In this document: piece after piece, positions 2-55,710 of the stretch
Position numbering within the stretch: the stretch's first letter is position 1
Layout: every line of letters starts with the position of its first letter
Assembly (NCBI RefSeq): GCF_002127325.2
Contig: NC_035438.2
Coordinates: forward strand, 146,953,207-147,017,206
Direction: 5' to 3'
DNA: 64,000 nucleotides
Source of the DNA: Helianthus annuus
Lineage: Eukaryota > Streptophyta > Magnoliopsida > Asterales > Asteraceae
Position numbers and translations under genes: made by a program
The notes under the pieces: generated by a model
What the model saw: the letters and a program-made list of their open reading frames with translations, nothing else
Told to the model about the DNA's origin: nothing
Database searches by the model: none

Positions 2-250
2 CCAGTTGAAATCACGGACCGGGATGTGAAGGTCCTCAAAAACAAGAGAATCCCTCTTGTTCGAGTTCGCTGGAACTCCAAACGTGGCCCTGAGTACACA
101 TGGGAACGCGAAGACAGGATGACAGAAAAGTACCCTCAGTTATTCGACACCAATGCAACCACTACTGAGACTGAAGCTACTACTTCGGAATTTCGGGACG
201 AAATTCCAGATCAACGGGGGGAGGATGTGACACCCCAAGAAAACCAGTGA
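2..250 (+). pseudogene. Pol C-terminus with chromodomain tail (Gy1, partial)
   Basis: This is the last 82 codons of a gypsy integrase. It contains the chromodomain-like stretch typical of Tekay/Del chromoviruses (IPLVRVRW, then GPEYTWERE, then KYPQLF), which in this family is thought to steer integration to heterochromatin. The visible part is open, but the N-terminus lies off the window, so intactness is unknown. The frame runs through the polypurine tract and stops 25 nt inside the 3' LTR, so the final residues are LTR-encoded. It also passes through the pre-PPT hairpin at 187-207. Confidence 0.8.
187..225 (+). promoter_or_regulatory. Pre-PPT hairpin and polypurine tract of Gy1
   Basis: GGAATTTCG (187-195), loop GGA, then CGAAATTCC (199-207) form a perfect 9-bp stem. 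It is followed by a purine-rich tract (ACGGGGGGAGGA, about 214-225) that directly abuts the LTR start TGTGACACCCC. The purine tract is the expected plus-strand primer. The hairpin recurs in the other elements (see findings). Confidence 0.75.
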
Positions 251-1084
251 ACAATACAGTTTACCTAGCTTCCTCAGTGAGTGCATACCAAATTTCGGGA
301 CGAAATTTCCAATTAGTTGGGGATAATGTGACAACTCGAACTTTAGACTTGCTTTGATGTAACGTTACGTGCTTATGAGAACTGAATTATATGATTTTAA
401 ATGAATATTTGTTTATGTGCGTTATGTGTGTATGTATGTTATGTGTTGCACGAGCCCAAACTACACAAACCGGTCACACAAGCCCGTTTGGGCCACACTT
501 TGAAATCGGATCCATTAGGCAGCCGAGTTGGGCTCGGCCCACCCCTCTACCGTGTAAACACCTTAGGGACTTGGTTATTTTCTCATTTGTTACAAACACC
601 ATCACACACACACAACCCTAGACTCTTTTTCTCTCTCTCTCTAGGTCGCTTGGAACCCGACGGCAAGAATACCCCTACTCGGATCACCCTCTTTTCCTTC
701 TTTAATCCGGTTAGTGATTATGTTATTGGTTGTGTGTTATTGTTTGTATGTTGATAATTGCTTGATACCCGAAGGATTCTTGTTAACATGTTGTTTATGA
801 TAATAGTTATTATTGATTGTGAACCGGCTGCATGATTATTGAATTGGATTGGTCCGGATGTTGTTTGATAACCGGTTGTGATTAAAGAGTTAGGTTGCAT
901 GCTAGTATGATGATATGATTATGATTCGGTTTAGTTTTGATGCTGTTCTTAAACATGAAATGAACATGTTGAATGTGTTTTGAAACTGATTAAATTATGA
1001 GTTTGATCTGATTTCCGAAACTGCCAAACTTGTTTGCTGAATTTACGGTAGTGATTGGGATTGAATTTAGGAAATCAGGAAAAT

Positions 1085-1322
1085 CAGTTACACACTGGGT
1101 TGCGACTCAGATTGCGAGTCGAAACCTCACGGTCACGACTCGAGACCACAACAGCACCAGTCGAGACCATGGTTGCGAGTCCCGTTGCGACTCGTAACCG
1201 GACCATGATGAGCCGAAATCACCATTGCGACTCGCAACCTCCTGTTGCGACTCGTAATCTCCTGCTGTGACTCGTAACTCTCGGTTGCGACTCGAGATCG
1301 CCGGTTGCGACTCGAGACCACC
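1085..1322 (+). repeat. GTTGCGACTCG short repeats in the Gy1 LTR
   Basis: About ten imperfect copies of a core GTTGCGACTCG(AGACC), some as the reverse form, are packed into 240 bp. The soloB LTR has a matching block at 28975-29180, so this is a family trait and not local noise. Spacing is irregular (roughly 20-30 bp), unlike a satellite or CRISPR array. The function is unknown. Confidence 0.8.
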
Positions 1323-1843
1323 TTTGCACGTACATCGGTTTGGGCCTACACTGTCACGGGCCCAACCGTTTGGACCAATGATTGGATTTGTGGACTGTTT
1401 GTTATTGGACTTGTATGCGTTTACTATTTGGGCCGATTGAGAATCTGGACTGTTTAGATTGGGCCGTTATATGAATTGGCTGATATGTTATTTGGGCTGT
1501 TTGTATTTCGGGCTTAGACATTGGATCGCACATGAATATTCATGCTATGCTTTTACCTGTTCACATGCATACGTGATAGTAACGTGTTAACAAATGTGGT
1601 GCACACGTGTATTACCTTAGTCAAAACCTGACTTGTATAATAACCATGATAGGACGAGGTTGACCATTTACTTGCTACCTGTACTCTTTGTGTATCTGCC
1701 GAGCAAACCAAGGTGAGTTCACACAGCCAAGGCATGGGATTCCCGGGTTGGGAAGTGGGTTGAATATGTTGATATTAAAAGAGTTACTCGTACTTACGCA
1801 TTCTCTAGACTATAGACCATCGTCCTCAGGTTAGTCAGGACAC

Positions 1844-2218
1844 GTTGCGTAAAGCCTACGTAACCCAGTAATTTCCATATGTCTCCCGGGTCGGGAGGAC
1901 ACGTTACGTAAAGCCTACGTAACCCAATACCATCCACTGGCTTCCGGGTCGGAAGGCCACGCTGCGTAAAGCCTACGTAGCCCCCACGCGTACCAATGTC
2001 CTCGGGGAAGGGCACGTCACGTAAAGCCTACGTGACCCTGTATGTTTTCCTGTTCTCGGTAAAGAAGAACACATGGTTGGAAGTTAGTCTAGTAAGTACC
2101 ACTAATGAGAAGCCCTCATTAGTAAGGATAAACGTGGGAAGCCCCCACCAGTAATATAAACACAAGGTTTGGGAAGCCCCCACCTTTAGTACACACTAGT
2201 ATGGGAAGCCCCCACTAG
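1844..2218 (+). repeat. Array of eight AAGCC-loop hairpins in the Gy1 LTR
   Basis: Eight inverted repeats share an invariant AAGCC loop. Stems are at 1844-1864 (GTTGCGTA/TACGTAAC), 1903-1923 (GTTACGTA/TACGTAAC), 1961-1981 (GCTGCGTA/TACGTAGC), 2016-2036 (GTCACGTA/TACGTGAC), 2101-2123 (ACTAATGAG/CTCATTAGT), 2134-2148 (GTGGG/CCCAC), 2164-2186 (AAGG..TGGG/CCCA..CCTT) and 2196-2218 (CTAG..TGGG/CCCA..CTAG). Units 2 and 3 are each preceded by a second hairpin (CTCCCG-GGT-CGGGAG at 1883-1897; CTTCCG-GGT-CGGAAG at 1941-1955). Stems vary while pairing is kept. The position is in the downstream half of the LTR, so it is probably transcribed. Confidence 0.85.
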
Positions 2219-2577
2219 CTAAACTTATGCACTATGTTATGAACTCACTTTCTGTGAACTCGCTCAACTAGTTTGTTGATTATTTGTTGCATGCCTTGCA
2301 GGACCTTAGGTACATTATGGAGCTTGCACAGGGAGGGGCAGGTCATTGTGGGATCTGGATCATGAACTTTATCTGAACTTATAACTATTTTGAGATTTCA
2401 TACTATGCTTCCGCTATTTGAACGATGTTTGGTTTTTGAAACATCAATCATGTCATGATGATTTACATTAACTGCTTTTATTATTAAATGCTATGTTTGA
2501 TATGATTGATGGCTTGATCCTGGTCAGTCACGCTCCCAAGCGGTGGTACTCCGCGGGTGGATTTTGGGGGTGTGACA

Positions 2578-9785: not shown

Positions 9786-12070
9786 AATAGGGTCTGCAAG
9801 CCTTATTTAGATAAGTTCATCATCGTTTTTATTGATGACATTTTGATATATTCTAAGACGCGAGCCGATCATGAGCAACATCTTCGTCTTACTTTGGAAC
9901 TCCTGAAAAAAAGAGCAACCTTTTGCCAAATTCTCCAAGTGCGAATTTTGGCTTATGGAAGTTCAATTTTTGGGACATATTGTCAACGAACAAGGTATTC
10001 ATGTAGATCCCTCCAAGATCAGTGCGATTAAGGATTGGGATACACCTACTACTCCTACTGAAGTTCGTTCTTTTCTTGGTCTTGCGGGTTATTACCGCCG
10101 CTTCATTGAAAACTTCTCAAAGATTGCAGTTCCCCTAACTGCTCTAACTCAGAAGAACAAACCCTTCGAATGGGGAACCAAACAAGAAGAAGCGTTTCAG
10201 ACCTTGAAGCAGAAGCTTTGTGATGCGCCTATTCTATCTTTGCCTGAGGGCAATGATGATTTTGTCGTGTATTGTGATGCATCAAACTTGGGTCTTGGCT
10301 GTGTTCTAATGCAAAGGAACAAAGTCATAGCGTATGCATCAAGGCAGTTGAAGGTACACGAGAAAAACTACACCACTCAAAATGCGTGGTTTTCACGGAC
10401 CACAAAAGTCTTCAGCACATCTTCAATCAGAAAGAACTCAACATGAGGCAACGACGTTGGGTTGAACTTCTAAACGACTATGATTGCGAAATTCGCTACC
10501 ATCCTGGTAAGGAAAATGTCGTGGTTGACGCTTTGAGTTGTAAAGAACGTGTCAAGCTTCATTGTGTTCGTGTTCAATCTGATATTCAAGCACGATCCGA
10601 TATCCAAACCCGCATTTCTCAGGCTCAACATACTTGTGTTTCATAAGGTTTGATGGGTAAGGAATTACCCTATCACATTAAGCCTGATCTTGAACTGAAG
10701 GACAATGGATCATATTATTTCATGGACCGTTTGTGGGTCCCAAGCGAAGATGATCTTCGCACCTTACTTATGGATGAAGCCCATAAGTCTCGTTATTCTA
10801 TTCATCCTGGCTCAGACAAAATGTATAAGGATCTTCGTACTCAGTATTGGTGGCCTGGTATGAAGAAAGACATTGCCTTATACGTTTCAAAATGCCTTAC
10901 TTGTCTTAAGGTTAAGGCTGAACATCAACATCCTTCTGGTTTATTGGACCAACCAGAGATTCCAATTTAGAAATGGGAAAACATTGCTATGGATCTTGTT
11001 ACCAAACTTCCGCGCACCAAGAAAGGTCATGATGCCATCTGGGTAATTGTTGATCGCCTTACAAAATCAGCGCATTTCTTGCCGATCCGTGAGGATCTAC
11101 CTGCTGACAAGCTTGTTAAAATCTATGTGGATGAAATTGTGTCTAGACATGGTGTTCCTTTGAACATTATTTCTGACAGAGATGTCGATTCTCATCTCGT
11201 TTTTGGAGAACGATGCAATCTGCCATGGGGACCCAACTTAATCTGAGCACAGCTTATCATCCACAATCAGATGGCCAAACTAAAAGAACAATCCAGACTT
11301 TGGAGGATATTCTTAGAGCTTGTGTGATCGATTTTGGTGGTAGTTGGGATTCGTATCTTCCATTGATTGAATTCTCTTACAACAATAATTATCACTCCAG
11401 CATCAACATGGCACCTTTCGAGGCTCTTTATGGTCGAAAATGTCGTTCACCAGTCTGCTGGAATGAGATCGGTGAGGCTCAGCTTACTGGACCTGACCTC
11501 ATTCTAGAGACAACCTATAAGGTTAAGAAAGTTCGTGATAACCTTCAGACAGCTAGAAGCTGTCAAAAGAGTTACGCGGACCGACGACGCAAACCCTTGG
11601 AATTTCAAGTCGGTGATCGCGTATTACTTAAGGTCTCACCTTGGAAAGGTGTGATCAGATTTGGAAAGACAGGAAAACTTGCACCTAGATATGTTGGACC
11701 ATCCAAGATCATCGAAAGAATCGGTAAGGTAGCCTACAGACTTGAGTTACCTCCTAAACTTGGAAATGTTCATCCAACCTTTCATGTGTCCAATCTCAAG
11801 AAGTGTCTAGCTGATGAGAACCTCCACATACCACTTGACGAAATTCGTGTTGATAACACAATGCATATCGTTGAGAAACCTGTGGAAATCATGGACCGTG
11901 AAGTCAAGTGGCTTAAACGCAAGCGCATTCCATTGGTCAAAGTTCGCTGGGAATCTAAACGTGGACCAGAATTTACTTGGGAACGTGAAGATCAAATGAA
12001 AGCGAAGTATCCACATTTATTCTCACGAGTTTCCTCTAAACAAATTTCGGGACGAAATTTCCGCAAGTAG
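9786..12070 (+). pseudogene. Pol fragment of Gy3: RT end, RNase H, integrase, chromodomain
   Basis: Landmarks in order: RT palm motif [10 protein letters not shown] (about 9825-9850), RT connection, RNase H (YCDAS, DHKS, DAL), integrase HHCC zinc site ([14 protein letters not shown]) and DDE core, then chromodomain ([19 protein letters not shown]). Breaks: a frameshift near 9905, a deletion of roughly 70 bp in RNase H near 10380, a stop after about 10646, TAG at 10968-10970 where relatives have Trp, a frameshift near 11185, and Lys at 11282-11284 in place of the catalytic integrase Glu. It is clearly dead. Confidence 0.9.
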
Positions 12071-27768: not shown

Positions 27769-28046
27769 ATTGATCGAGCCACTGATTTGTGACACCCCGT
27801 TGAAACATTCTCACTTATACTAGCTTGGCAGTGACTGCCTTAACTTTCGGGACGAAAGTTCTTAAAACTTGGGGATAATGTGACACTCTAGGTTTTCCGA
27901 ACAATTACCTTGTATTACATTGTGCGTGTATATGTGTTATAAAATGAAAGTTGTGATTTCTTTTGCGCTATGTACCGATAATGTGTTGTATGTATGTATG
28001 ATATAAATATATATTAGAGTAGAAGTGAGCCGAGACCACGAAACCC

Positions 28047-28974: not shown

Positions 28975-29180
28975 AGTGGTTGCGAGTCGGAACCCTTGGT
29001 TGCGACTCTAGACCAAAACGTGATTCGTCGAGATCTCCCGGTTGCGACTCGCAAGCAGCACATGATGAACCGAAACCGAGGTTGCGAGTCGGAACCCCTG
29101 GTTGCGACTCGAGACCAAAGCATGATGAACCGAAACCAGGGTTGCGAGTCGGAATCCCTTGGTTGCGACTCGAAACCGTG
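28975..29180 (+). repeat. GTTGCGACTCG repeats in soloB
   Basis: About eight imperfect copies of GGTTGCGACTCG and the variant GGTTGCGAGTCG, equivalent to 1085-1322 in Gy1. Confidence 0.8.
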
Positions 29181-39238: not shown

Positions 39239-41229
39239 TAGCCAATCATGCTCGAATTCTCTGTGATAAGAACTTTATAGAAATTCAGGCACCGCCGGGG
39301 AAGTAATTGTGATTACAGGAAATAAACCATGTAAGGTCACGAGGTTCATATCAGTAATGAAAGTTGCTAGTTATGCACGAAAGCAAGGAATAGTATATAT
39401 GATTTCAGTAATCATTAGTACTAAGAGTAAAGAACTTAAGGAAATTCCTGTAGTTTCAGAATACCTAGATGTATTCTCAGAAGAGTTACCAGGATTACCA
39501 CCAGATAGGGAGATAGAATTTAGGATTAATCTAATTCCAGAAACTATACCGATAGCCAAGGCACCTTATCAGTTAGCACTCACAGAAATATTAAAACTGA
39601 AAAATCAATTAGATGAATTATTAAGTAAAGGTTTCATACAACATAGTTCATCCCCTTGGGGAGTACCAGTGTTGTTTATTAAGAAAAAAGGATGATCCGA
39701 TGAGAATGTGCATTGATTATAGAGAATTGAATAAGGTTACAATTAAGAATCGATACCCATTACCTAGGATTGATGATCTTTTCGATCAACTTCAAGGAGC
39801 TAGATATTTTCTAAACTATACCTACGTTCCGGATATCATCAATTGAAAGTACAAGAGGAAGACATACCTAAAACTGCTTTCAGAACTATAGTCATTACGA
39901 GTTTACAGTCATGCCCTTCGGATTAGCGACTGTACTTGCACCATTCATGGACAAAATGAATAAGATCTGTAAACCATATTTGGATAAATTTGTAATTATC
40001 TTCATCAACGATATACTTATTTATCAGCACTTGCATGCACTCTTAACTTTGTTAAGAAAAGAGAAGCTTTTCGCTAAATTCTCGAAGTATGAATTTTGGC
40101 TGCCAGAAGTACAATTTCTGGGTCATATGGTGAATCATGAAGGTATTCACATAAGATCCTGATAAGATAGCAGCAATTATCAAATGGCAGGTTCCGCAAT
40201 CCGCAATGGAAATTAGGAGTTTTGTAGGTTTAGTCGGATACTATAGACGGTTTATTAAGGATTTTTCTAGATAGCTATATCATTAACTAAGCTAACCTGT
40301 AAAAACAATTAAGTTTGAATAAGGACCTAAACAACAAGAAGCCTTTAGGATCTTAAAGTATAAATTAACAAATGTCCCAATCTTAACCTTACCAGAAGGA
40401 ACAGAAGATTTTAAAGTATATGGTGATGCTTCAAAATTAGGATTTGGATGCGTGTTAATGCAACGCAAAAAGGTAATTGCGTATGCATCAAGGAAATTGA
40501 AAAAGCACAAAGAAAACTATACCACTCATGATTTAGAATTAGGAGCCATAATTTTTGCCCTTAAGATTTGGAGACATTATCTGTATGGAAGTAAGTTTAC
40601 TGTCTATACGGATCATAAGAATTTAAGATATATATTTGGGTAAAAAGAATTAAACATGAGGCAAAGGAGATGGATGAAAATCCTAAGTGACTACGACTAT
40701 GATATTCAGTATCACGAAGAAAAAGCTGAAGACGACTAGAGATCGCCAGAAGAGTTATATAGATAATAGACGAAAGCCGTTGGAGTTTAAAGTTAGAGAC
40801 AAAATGCTATCGAAAATATCTCCTTGGAAAGGAGTTGTTAGATTCGGTAAGAAAGAAAAGCTAAGTCCAAGGTACGTAGGACCATTTCCAGTAATCCAAC
40901 GTATAGGACCAGTTGCTTATCATTTACAACTACCAGAAGAATTAGCTGGAATACATGATGTGTTTCATGTATCCAATCTCAAGAAATATTTATCTGACGA
41001 ATCCCTGGTAGTACCTCTTCAAGATATAGAGGTAAATGAAAAGCTGAAATTCGTAGAGAAACCACTACAGATAGAAGATAGAAAAGTCAAGTTTCTCAAA
41101 CACAAGCGTCTAGTGCTAGTCAAAAATCAAATGGGAGGACCAGAATACACTTGGGAGCTAGGAATCAGAAATAAAGACGGAAATATCCTCATTTATTCCA
41201 ATAAATCTCGAGGACGAGATTTTTCTTAA
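39239..41229 (+). pseudogene. Pol of Gy4: RT, RNase H, deleted integrase, chromodomain
   Basis: RT landmarks ([31 protein letters not shown], then [12 protein letters not shown]) and the palm motif read IFINDILIY, with Asn where the first catalytic Asp belongs. RNase H follows ([18 protein letters not shown]). At about 40720 the sequence jumps from the end of RNase H to the integrase C-terminus ([16 protein letters not shown]), so the zinc site and DDE core are gone; Gy5 has about 1 kb here. The chromodomain is frameshifted near 41120. Several frameshifts and stops are present. Confidence 0.9.
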
Positions 41230-55674: not shown

Positions 55675-55710
55675 GTCTCCCCTCCTTTAGGAAATTTCGT
55701 CCCGAAATTT
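55675..55710 (-). promoter_or_regulatory. Pre-PPT hairpin and polypurine tract of Gy6
   Basis: In element sense AAATTTCG, loop GGA, CGAAATTT (55710-55692), then AAAGGAGGGGAGAC (55688-55675) abutting the LTR. Confidence 0.85.

Follow-up and report, generated by a model that had tools for sequence, protein, structure and literature searches.

An array of tandem hairpins in a leader intron of a sunflower Ty3/Gypsy LTR retrotransposon is very probably a selected RNA domain

Introduction

In retroviral leaders such as that of HIV-1, the packaging signal, Psi, is made up of small hairpins downstream of the splice donor. The constitutive transport elements of simple retroviruses likewise present repeated loops on unspliced RNA.

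The available text of a recent review (PMC12786077) describes plant LTR elements as generally lacking introns and calls it unclear whether they have export motifs comparable to the leader of cauliflower mosaic virus. It credits the introns of Ogre and EVADE elements with the production of subgenomic RNAs, and BARE1 is reported to have an optional intron within gag in the available text of PMC3735527. Three Tekay groups are active in sunflower according to PMC11728184, in the main text of which the words hairpin, intron and splic are absent. Among the literature matches listed, from a coverage in which subscription journals are mostly not included, no paper dealt with the array described here or with an intron inside a plant Gypsy LTR.

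Here, we analyse an array of small hairpins in an LTR carried on a 64-kb stretch of sunflower DNA (the window, to which all plain coordinates refer). As in HIV-1 Psi, several small hairpins lie just past a 5′ splice site and are carried on unspliced RNA only, and the element encodes a Gag with two CCHC knuckles. Unlike Psi, the sunflower array lies inside the LTR, in the second leader intron, and consists of four similar tandem units with a common AANCC loop and a helix that closes on the splice site; packaging is here a proposal. By analogy, the array may work in the same general way as retroviral leaders, without being a member of a named signal family. Constitutive transport elements share with it the repeated loops on unspliced RNA but differ in sequence and architecture, and export, too, is a proposal here. 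As far as the available texts on Ogre, EVADE and BARE1 go, the likeness is that splicing sorts RNA into classes of different fate; BARE1 has its intron in gag, whereas two introns are found in the leader, within the LTR, in the present element. With the sunflower Tekay chromoviruses, as described in the text of PMC11728184, it has in common a Gypsy pol and, to judge from a weak match, possibly a chromodomain-like integrase end.

Results

The hairpin array and its host element

The array lies in the 3′ LTR of a Gypsy element, Gy1, of which the window holds the following parts:

2..247, + strand: integrase C terminus, matching Pfam Chromo weakly (E 0.025; 15 bits, cut-off 25.1)
327..2577, + strand: 3′ LTR of Gy1, 2.25 kb, with TG...CA ends

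The 5′ partner LTR is found ~7.4 kb upstream, outside the window, where the copy of the array is 100% identical over 200 bases (G000:C6:146947668). The PBS-like sequence TGGTATCAGAGCC, which we take to fit the initiator Met tRNA, begins 3 nt past the 5′ LTR. An open piece of the same element matched Ty3_capsid (4.7e-12), RVP_2 (1.1e-21) and RVT_1 (3e-33), representing Gypsy capsid, protease and reverse transcriptase, and its Gag contains two encoded CCHC zinc knuckles. Judged by its sequence, the element is Ty3/Gypsy; a Tekay-like clade is likely but not proven because the chromodomain match is under the cut-off. Elsewhere in the window, three LTR-size direct-repeat pairs share 95-98% identity (31998-33751/36503-38314, 43216-44699/50515-52001 and 26313-27747/41241-42695).

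All eight AAGCC-loop hairpins named by the original prediction were found in their places, between 1844 and 2214 of the window:

1844..1864, + strand: AAGCC hairpin 1, 8 bp with one G·U
1903..1923, + strand: AAGCC hairpin 2
1961..1981, + strand: AAGCC hairpin 3
2016..2036, + strand: AAGCC hairpin 4
2101..2123, + strand: AAGCC hairpin 5, 9 bp
2134..2148, + strand: AAGCC hairpin 6
2170..2182, + strand: AAGCC hairpin 7, 4 contiguous pairs
2202..2214, + strand: AAGCC hairpin 8, 4 contiguous pairs

Hairpins 6-8 have one short stem in common, TGGG/CCCA. The rest of the window contains only two other AAGCC hairpins of at least 4 pairs: a 4-bp one on the + strand and, on the − strand, one of 5 pairs that include two G·U. 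The prediction had further described two upstream companion hairpins. Both exist (companions 2 and 3 below), but a hairpin of the companion type can be drawn upstream of each of the four main units, hairpins 1-4:

1822..1841, + strand: companion hairpin 1, GTCCT...AGGAC
1883..1897, + strand: companion hairpin 2, CTCCCG-GGT-CGGGAG
1941..1955, + strand: companion hairpin 3, CTTCCG-GGT-CGGAAG
1998..2013, + strand: companion hairpin 4, GTCCT-CGGGGA-AGGGC, read from the sequence and present as the same hairpin in relatives
2051..2071, + strand: companion-type hairpin TGTTCT...AGAACA, without an AANCC partner

A spaced exact pattern of two main units had 12,362 matches in the genome (3.01 Gb, 334 contigs), where a single LTR can yield up to three, as against 12 for the reversed pattern. 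Rfam gave 0 matches at gathering score in the 64-kb window. Two pattern scans of viral contigs returned 11 and 0 stretches, and the 11, as printed, resembled the LTR only in the pattern itself.

The window also contains a different type of hairpin, in which the loop is nearly constant and the stems vary with their arms matched, at 187-207, 290-308, 12042-12060, 27842-27860, 41203-41222 and 55692-55710. Its forms include AAATTTCG-GGA-CGAAATTT, AACTTTCG-GGA-CGAAAGTT, GGAATTTCG-GGA-CGAAATTCC and AAATCTCG-AGGA-CGAGATTT. At 290-308 and 27842-27860, it stands directly before the purine tract and LTR start. Possibly, this hairpin is another RNA element, situated at the genome's 3′ end.

Two leader introns and rare intronless copies

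Relatives were sampled using a donor-block pattern with 19,430 genomic matches (reversed control, 0). From the first-listed matches, all on contig C1, 65 loci were fetched, meant as one per element. Together with Gy1 and soloB, they make up 67 rows, all of which, except the two from the window, derive from one stretch of one chromosome.

The array had been placed in the probable transcribed part of the LTR. It indeed lies there, within the second of two leader introns, the splicing of which is shown by rare intronless copies:

710..1652, + strand: leader intron 1; the last base of exon 1 is 709, with AATCCG followed by GTTAGTG
1653..1712, + strand: exon 2, 60 nt
1713..2301, + strand: intron 2, 589 nt, 25% T and 48% GC, containing the entire hairpin array

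In 15 of 17 LTRs, the corresponding region carries the donor of intron 1, CGGTTAGT or AAGGTAAT; all 17 have its acceptor, TAG followed by G, ~60 nt ahead of donor 2. Conservation in the 17-LTR alignment peaks at 1703-1752, at 2253-2352 and at the LTR end. The first block holds the intron 2 donor (AAG followed by GTGAGT); the second holds GCAG followed by G, after a branch-like TTGAY site. An intron 2 acceptor of CAG or TAG plus NNNNTTAGGTA occurs in 56 of the 67 rows; of the GT...AG ends, the donor was selected by the pattern and the acceptor was not.

If the intron is real and spliced RNA is reverse-transcribed, LTRs with the exact exon junction are expected. The exon 2/exon 3 junction pattern, fixed prior to the genome search, was found at 5 places (reversed control, 0): once on contig C10, twice on C11, 5.1 kb apart, and twice on C16, 7.2 kb apart, each pair on one strand. 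These places show three different exon-3 starts and were taken as three elements, for each of which one place was read:

G000:C10:16692560-16692780: intronless LTR stretch L148
G000:C11:74992320-74992560: intronless LTR stretch L149
G000:C16:83346100-83346560: intronless LTR stretch L147

In all three, the join of exon 2 to exon 3 is exact and intron 2 is gone. Intron 1 has also been removed from L149, exactly at the donor and acceptor of its relatives L126 and L131. Intron 1 is missing from L147 too, where exon 2 begins at the acceptor position seen in L137 and other relatives and exon 1 lacks a parent, and L148 appears to have lost intron 1. The double junctions on C11 and C16 would each fit a single element that is intronless in both of its LTRs.

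The intact donor with the same exon end has 40,707 genomic matches versus the 5 junction places, a ratio that is approximate because the junction pattern covers only families with TTAGGTA in exon 3 (55 or 56 of 67 rows) and decayed copies are missed by both patterns. From these genomic copies we conclude that splicing occurs and that spliced RNA can be retrotransposed, its offspring being extremely rare. The rarity of intronless LTRs may reflect either poor amplification or rare splicing.

This placement bears on the idea that the structured leader controls translation through a ribosome shunt or internal entry. The leader is long and structured, and plant pararetroviruses shunt, as stated in the available text of PMC5902531. 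The domain is an intron, however, and is therefore absent from the spliced messenger, which leaves translation control highly improbable.

Separately, intron 1 contains TTGCGACTCG repeats in both orientations (1081-1320 and 28980-29177), which are common to Gy1 and soloB.

Loop sequence among relatives

Units of the AANCC type were located in the 67 rows by a sequence-only score that made no use of pairing and was seeded by hand. The score found 162 units in 45 rows, comprising 70 distinct windows, versus 2 matches in shuffled loci; the unit counts used below are of distinct sequences, not independent events. The loop had been described as an invariant AAGCC, which does not extend to the relatives: there it is mostly AANCC (157 of 162 units), the others being AGACA (4 units, in two rows) and ATACC (1 unit, in one row), and the middle base changes in concert. 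A conserved loop is nonetheless what the Gy1 clade has, the AA and CC of hairpins 1-4 being unchanged in 28 of 28 loci.

The middle base is G, A or T and mostly switches together across the four hairpins of an element. Four units are present in 36 of the 45 rows; their middle bases are all G in 15, all A in 10, all T in 3, A-T-T-T in 6 and otherwise mixed in 2. Within the Gy1 clade, identity of this base is 0.88 between slots of the same locus and 0.41 for the same slot between loci. The corresponding values are 0.84 and 0.91-0.95 for the stems and 0.42 and 0.80 for the downstream spacer. These means are uncorrected for kinship, so that as few as three or four independent switches may have taken place.

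Two other accounts of the loop were set aside. Had whole units been subject to gene conversion, stems and spacers would not have kept their slot identity, and loop-loop dimerisation is unlikely because AANCC is not self-complementary.

Covariation and the strand under constraint

Pairing in the AANCC stems exceeded that of shuffled controls. In 60 distinct units, 93.1% of cells were paired versus 85.7% after shuffling, and 30 cells were doubly changed versus 6.9; none of 500 shuffles reached either value, and slid controls gave at most 43.3%. Two of the five measures failed against shuffles on this set, the number of pairs with a double change (3 vs 3.2) and that of further pair types (10 vs 10.1). 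Using 29 composite units, hand-chosen from the 60 for diversity, 99.1% of cells were paired versus 91.3%, and 26 cells were doubly changed versus 5.5 (0/500 shuffles; slid controls at most 48.0%). In this set, pairs with a double change numbered 6 versus 3.6 (12/500) and further pair types 15 versus 11.0 (2/500). RNAalifold, run without a given structure, recovered the same two hairpins, with double changes at 6 of 11 pairs. Among the 60 units, stem pair 1 occurs as UA, CG, AU, GU and GC, pair 2 as UA and CG, and pair 3 as AU, GU and GC.

Because shuffles ignore kinship, a tree-aware null was built from 132 contexts, 351 column pairs and 60 simulations using a purpose-written script rather than R-scape. 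Stem pairs 2 and 1 ranked first and second of the 351 and were equalled or bettered in 0 and 1 of the 60 simulations, respectively; the other five of the seven AANCC stem pairs were below significance. For the companion hairpin, 37 distinct flanks were compared: all of them have a standard pair at the first outer position and 35 at the second, values that 0 of 2000 shuffles reached in either case. The third is at chance (684/2000). Within the Gy1 clade, the AANCC stems vary nearly as much as the spacers (0.087 and 0.098), and the companion stems far less (0.010).

Changes on one arm had been described as matched on the other. This is so for hairpins 1-4 and their companions, for which the shuffle tests and, for two AANCC stem pairs, the tree-aware test bear out a selected RNA structure, but hairpins 5-8 show no clear covariation across relatives. 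Taken in register as the GGG-AANCC-CCC type, the latter had no outer pair clearly above shuffles. The best values were for outer pair 3 beyond GGG/CCC (9 vs 4.9; 9/2000 shuffles) and outer pair 4 (19 vs 13.4; 20/2000), while outer pair 2 included 28 A·C. An expression of the C2 type, which mixes registers, yielded nothing significant.

The mismatches carry a strand signal. In the 29 composites, G·U outnumbers A·C by 24 to 0, the three unpaired cells being UU, UU and UC, and in the 60 units by 28 to 10. Reconstructed on the tree, the events number 19 to 9 overall (8 to 2 on internal branches, 11 to 7 at tips), with 15 leading to other mispairs. G·U is, moreover, common to 14 and 8 distinct units at two stem pairs. 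The bias points to constraint on the + strand as RNA rather than on palindromic DNA, and the data favour such constraint, blurred by the decay of old copies. No strand signal came from folding energy (shuffle z of −3.27 for sense and −4.09 for antisense).

The alternative of protein-bound palindromic DNA, which the prediction had allowed, fares poorly by this measure. Many stems do contain TACGTA, as would suit ACGT-type factors of the bZIP family, yet compensated stems lose ACGT, as in GTGCGTA/TACGCAC, the G·U bias is specific to one strand, and hairpins free of ACGT occur in other families. We consider binding by such factors to be scarcely credible. A process free of selection could also imitate covariation: reverse transcriptases switch templates within hairpins and might thereby perfect quasi-palindromes, for which short, tandem hairpins such as these would be suitable. 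Repair of this kind should eliminate G·U as readily as A·C, contrary to the ratios above and to the G·U common to many units, and it does not explain the conservation of the loop. Palindrome repair is thus very improbable, and selection for RNA structure is the preferred explanation of the paired changes.

A closing helix and the exchange of hairpins among families

Beyond the hairpins, intron 2 is predicted to fold through the following elements:

1712..1723, + strand: 5′ arm of helix P1, GGTGAGTTCACA, over the 5′ splice site
2253..2264, + strand: 3′ arm of P1, TGTGAACTCGCT
1740..1754, + strand: hairpin TTCCC-GGGTT-GGGAA after the donor, in the conserved block
1805..1812, + strand: 5′ arm of helix P3, CTAGACTA, enclosing the four-unit array, from folding
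2085..2092, + strand: 3′ arm of P3, TAGTCTAG, from folding

P1 comprises 12 bp, two of them G·U, and has a mean helix probability of at least 0.92 in 20 of 21 representatives (0.06 in L059); its donor arm is fixed by the search pattern and so is not open to covariation testing. Mononucleotide-shuffle z values for the domains of the 21 representatives ranged from −0.2 to −5.9, four being above −1. P3 rests on folding because it varies little: its probability is at least 0.86 in 11 of the 14 representatives that have both arms, 0.59 in Gy1 and near 0 in two.

In other families, the same intron slot is occupied by different hairpins, namely TTCGCACACCTGCC...GGCCGCGA, GTATTCTCCTTGGGTAGAATAC or tandem ATCCTCGGTTGTGAAGGAT. 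This finding qualifies the suggestion that the array, being absent from soloB, was recently gained. SoloB does lack the AAGCC hairpin, but its donor, closing partner and acceptor are the same, which speaks against a simple recent gain.

Some individual loci are worth recording. Arrays of TTCGCACACCTGCC-loop-GGCCGCGA occupy the same intron at eight loci (L061, L068, L078, L085, L101, L115, L117 and L119), with 3-5 matches per locus. In L076, the intron 2 array gives way to unrelated sequence once the first companion hairpin has begun. For the hairpin type of L060, a single pair exceeded shuffles (6/2000), from 10 flanks of which two are unrelated matches.

The architecture of the intron raises the possibility that the domain controls splicing, with the closing helix masking the 5′ splice site and the hairpins compacting the intron, which would set the share of RNA left unspliced; pairing would matter and hairpin sequence would matter little. 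Consistent with this, the P1 partner is present in 64 of 67 rows, P1 folds in nearly all representatives, and hairpin types turn over among families while the intron ends stay. The intron is also poor in T, at 25% compared with 34% for intron 1 and 36% for that portion of exon 3 which lies in the LTR, whereas plant introns are generally more U-rich than exons in the available text of PMC3735527. Splicing control nevertheless leaves the fixed AA/CC and the concerted middle base of four hairpins unexplained, and we regard it as possible though unlikely.

The same turnover weighs on a nuclear export element for unspliced RNA, comparable to a constitutive transport element or the cauliflower mosaic virus leader. 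RNA that stays unspliced, its splice sites intact, has to exit the nucleus, and the structured leader of that virus recruits export factors according to the available text of PMC12786077. A host factor as reader should, however, keep the loop constant across families, and both hairpins and loops differ; export by this route is improbable.

Discussion

The results argue strongly for a structured, selected RNA domain in a leader intron, and we hold this structural part of the interpretation with high confidence. On this reading, a sense-RNA domain fills the second intron of a two-intron Ty3/Gypsy leader. A helix of the 5′ splice site with a site just upstream of the branch-point region closes the intron, and tandem two-hairpin units, each a companion plus an AANCC hairpin, are kept paired by compensatory change.

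What the domain does is a more tentative matter. Only unspliced RNA carries the array because the array lies in intron 2, and a repeated, constrained loop confined to an intron fits a mark on genomic RNA. The array might mark unspliced RNA as the genome for packaging and reverse transcription, with the spliced RNA acting as messenger. An RNA-binding protein acting in trans would then recognise the repeated loop, the likeliest candidate being Gag with its two CCHC knuckles. We put this complete mechanism, with Gag as the reader, at a little short of an even chance. Packaging, with Gag or a partner as reader, is the most likely function, and splicing control comes next. CCHC knuckles were found in 5 of 8 pieces; they are alike between elements with different arrays and do not track the loop base. 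Retroviral knuckles favour sites with an exposed G, which AAACC and AATCC loops, having no G, do not fit.

An extension of the packaging proposal, which we offer as speculation and think rather doubtful, is an address code. The concerted loop base would track the specificity of the reader, co-resident families would thereby keep their genomic RNAs apart, and splicing would serve as the switch between messenger and genome.

These observations bear on how plant LTR elements pick the RNA that becomes the next insertion. In sunflower, a donor with tens of thousands of genomic matches heads a leader intron that very probably holds a selected RNA domain, and the rare intronless copies constitute a natural experiment. 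The concerted loop base, for its part, would be a directly testable specificity code.
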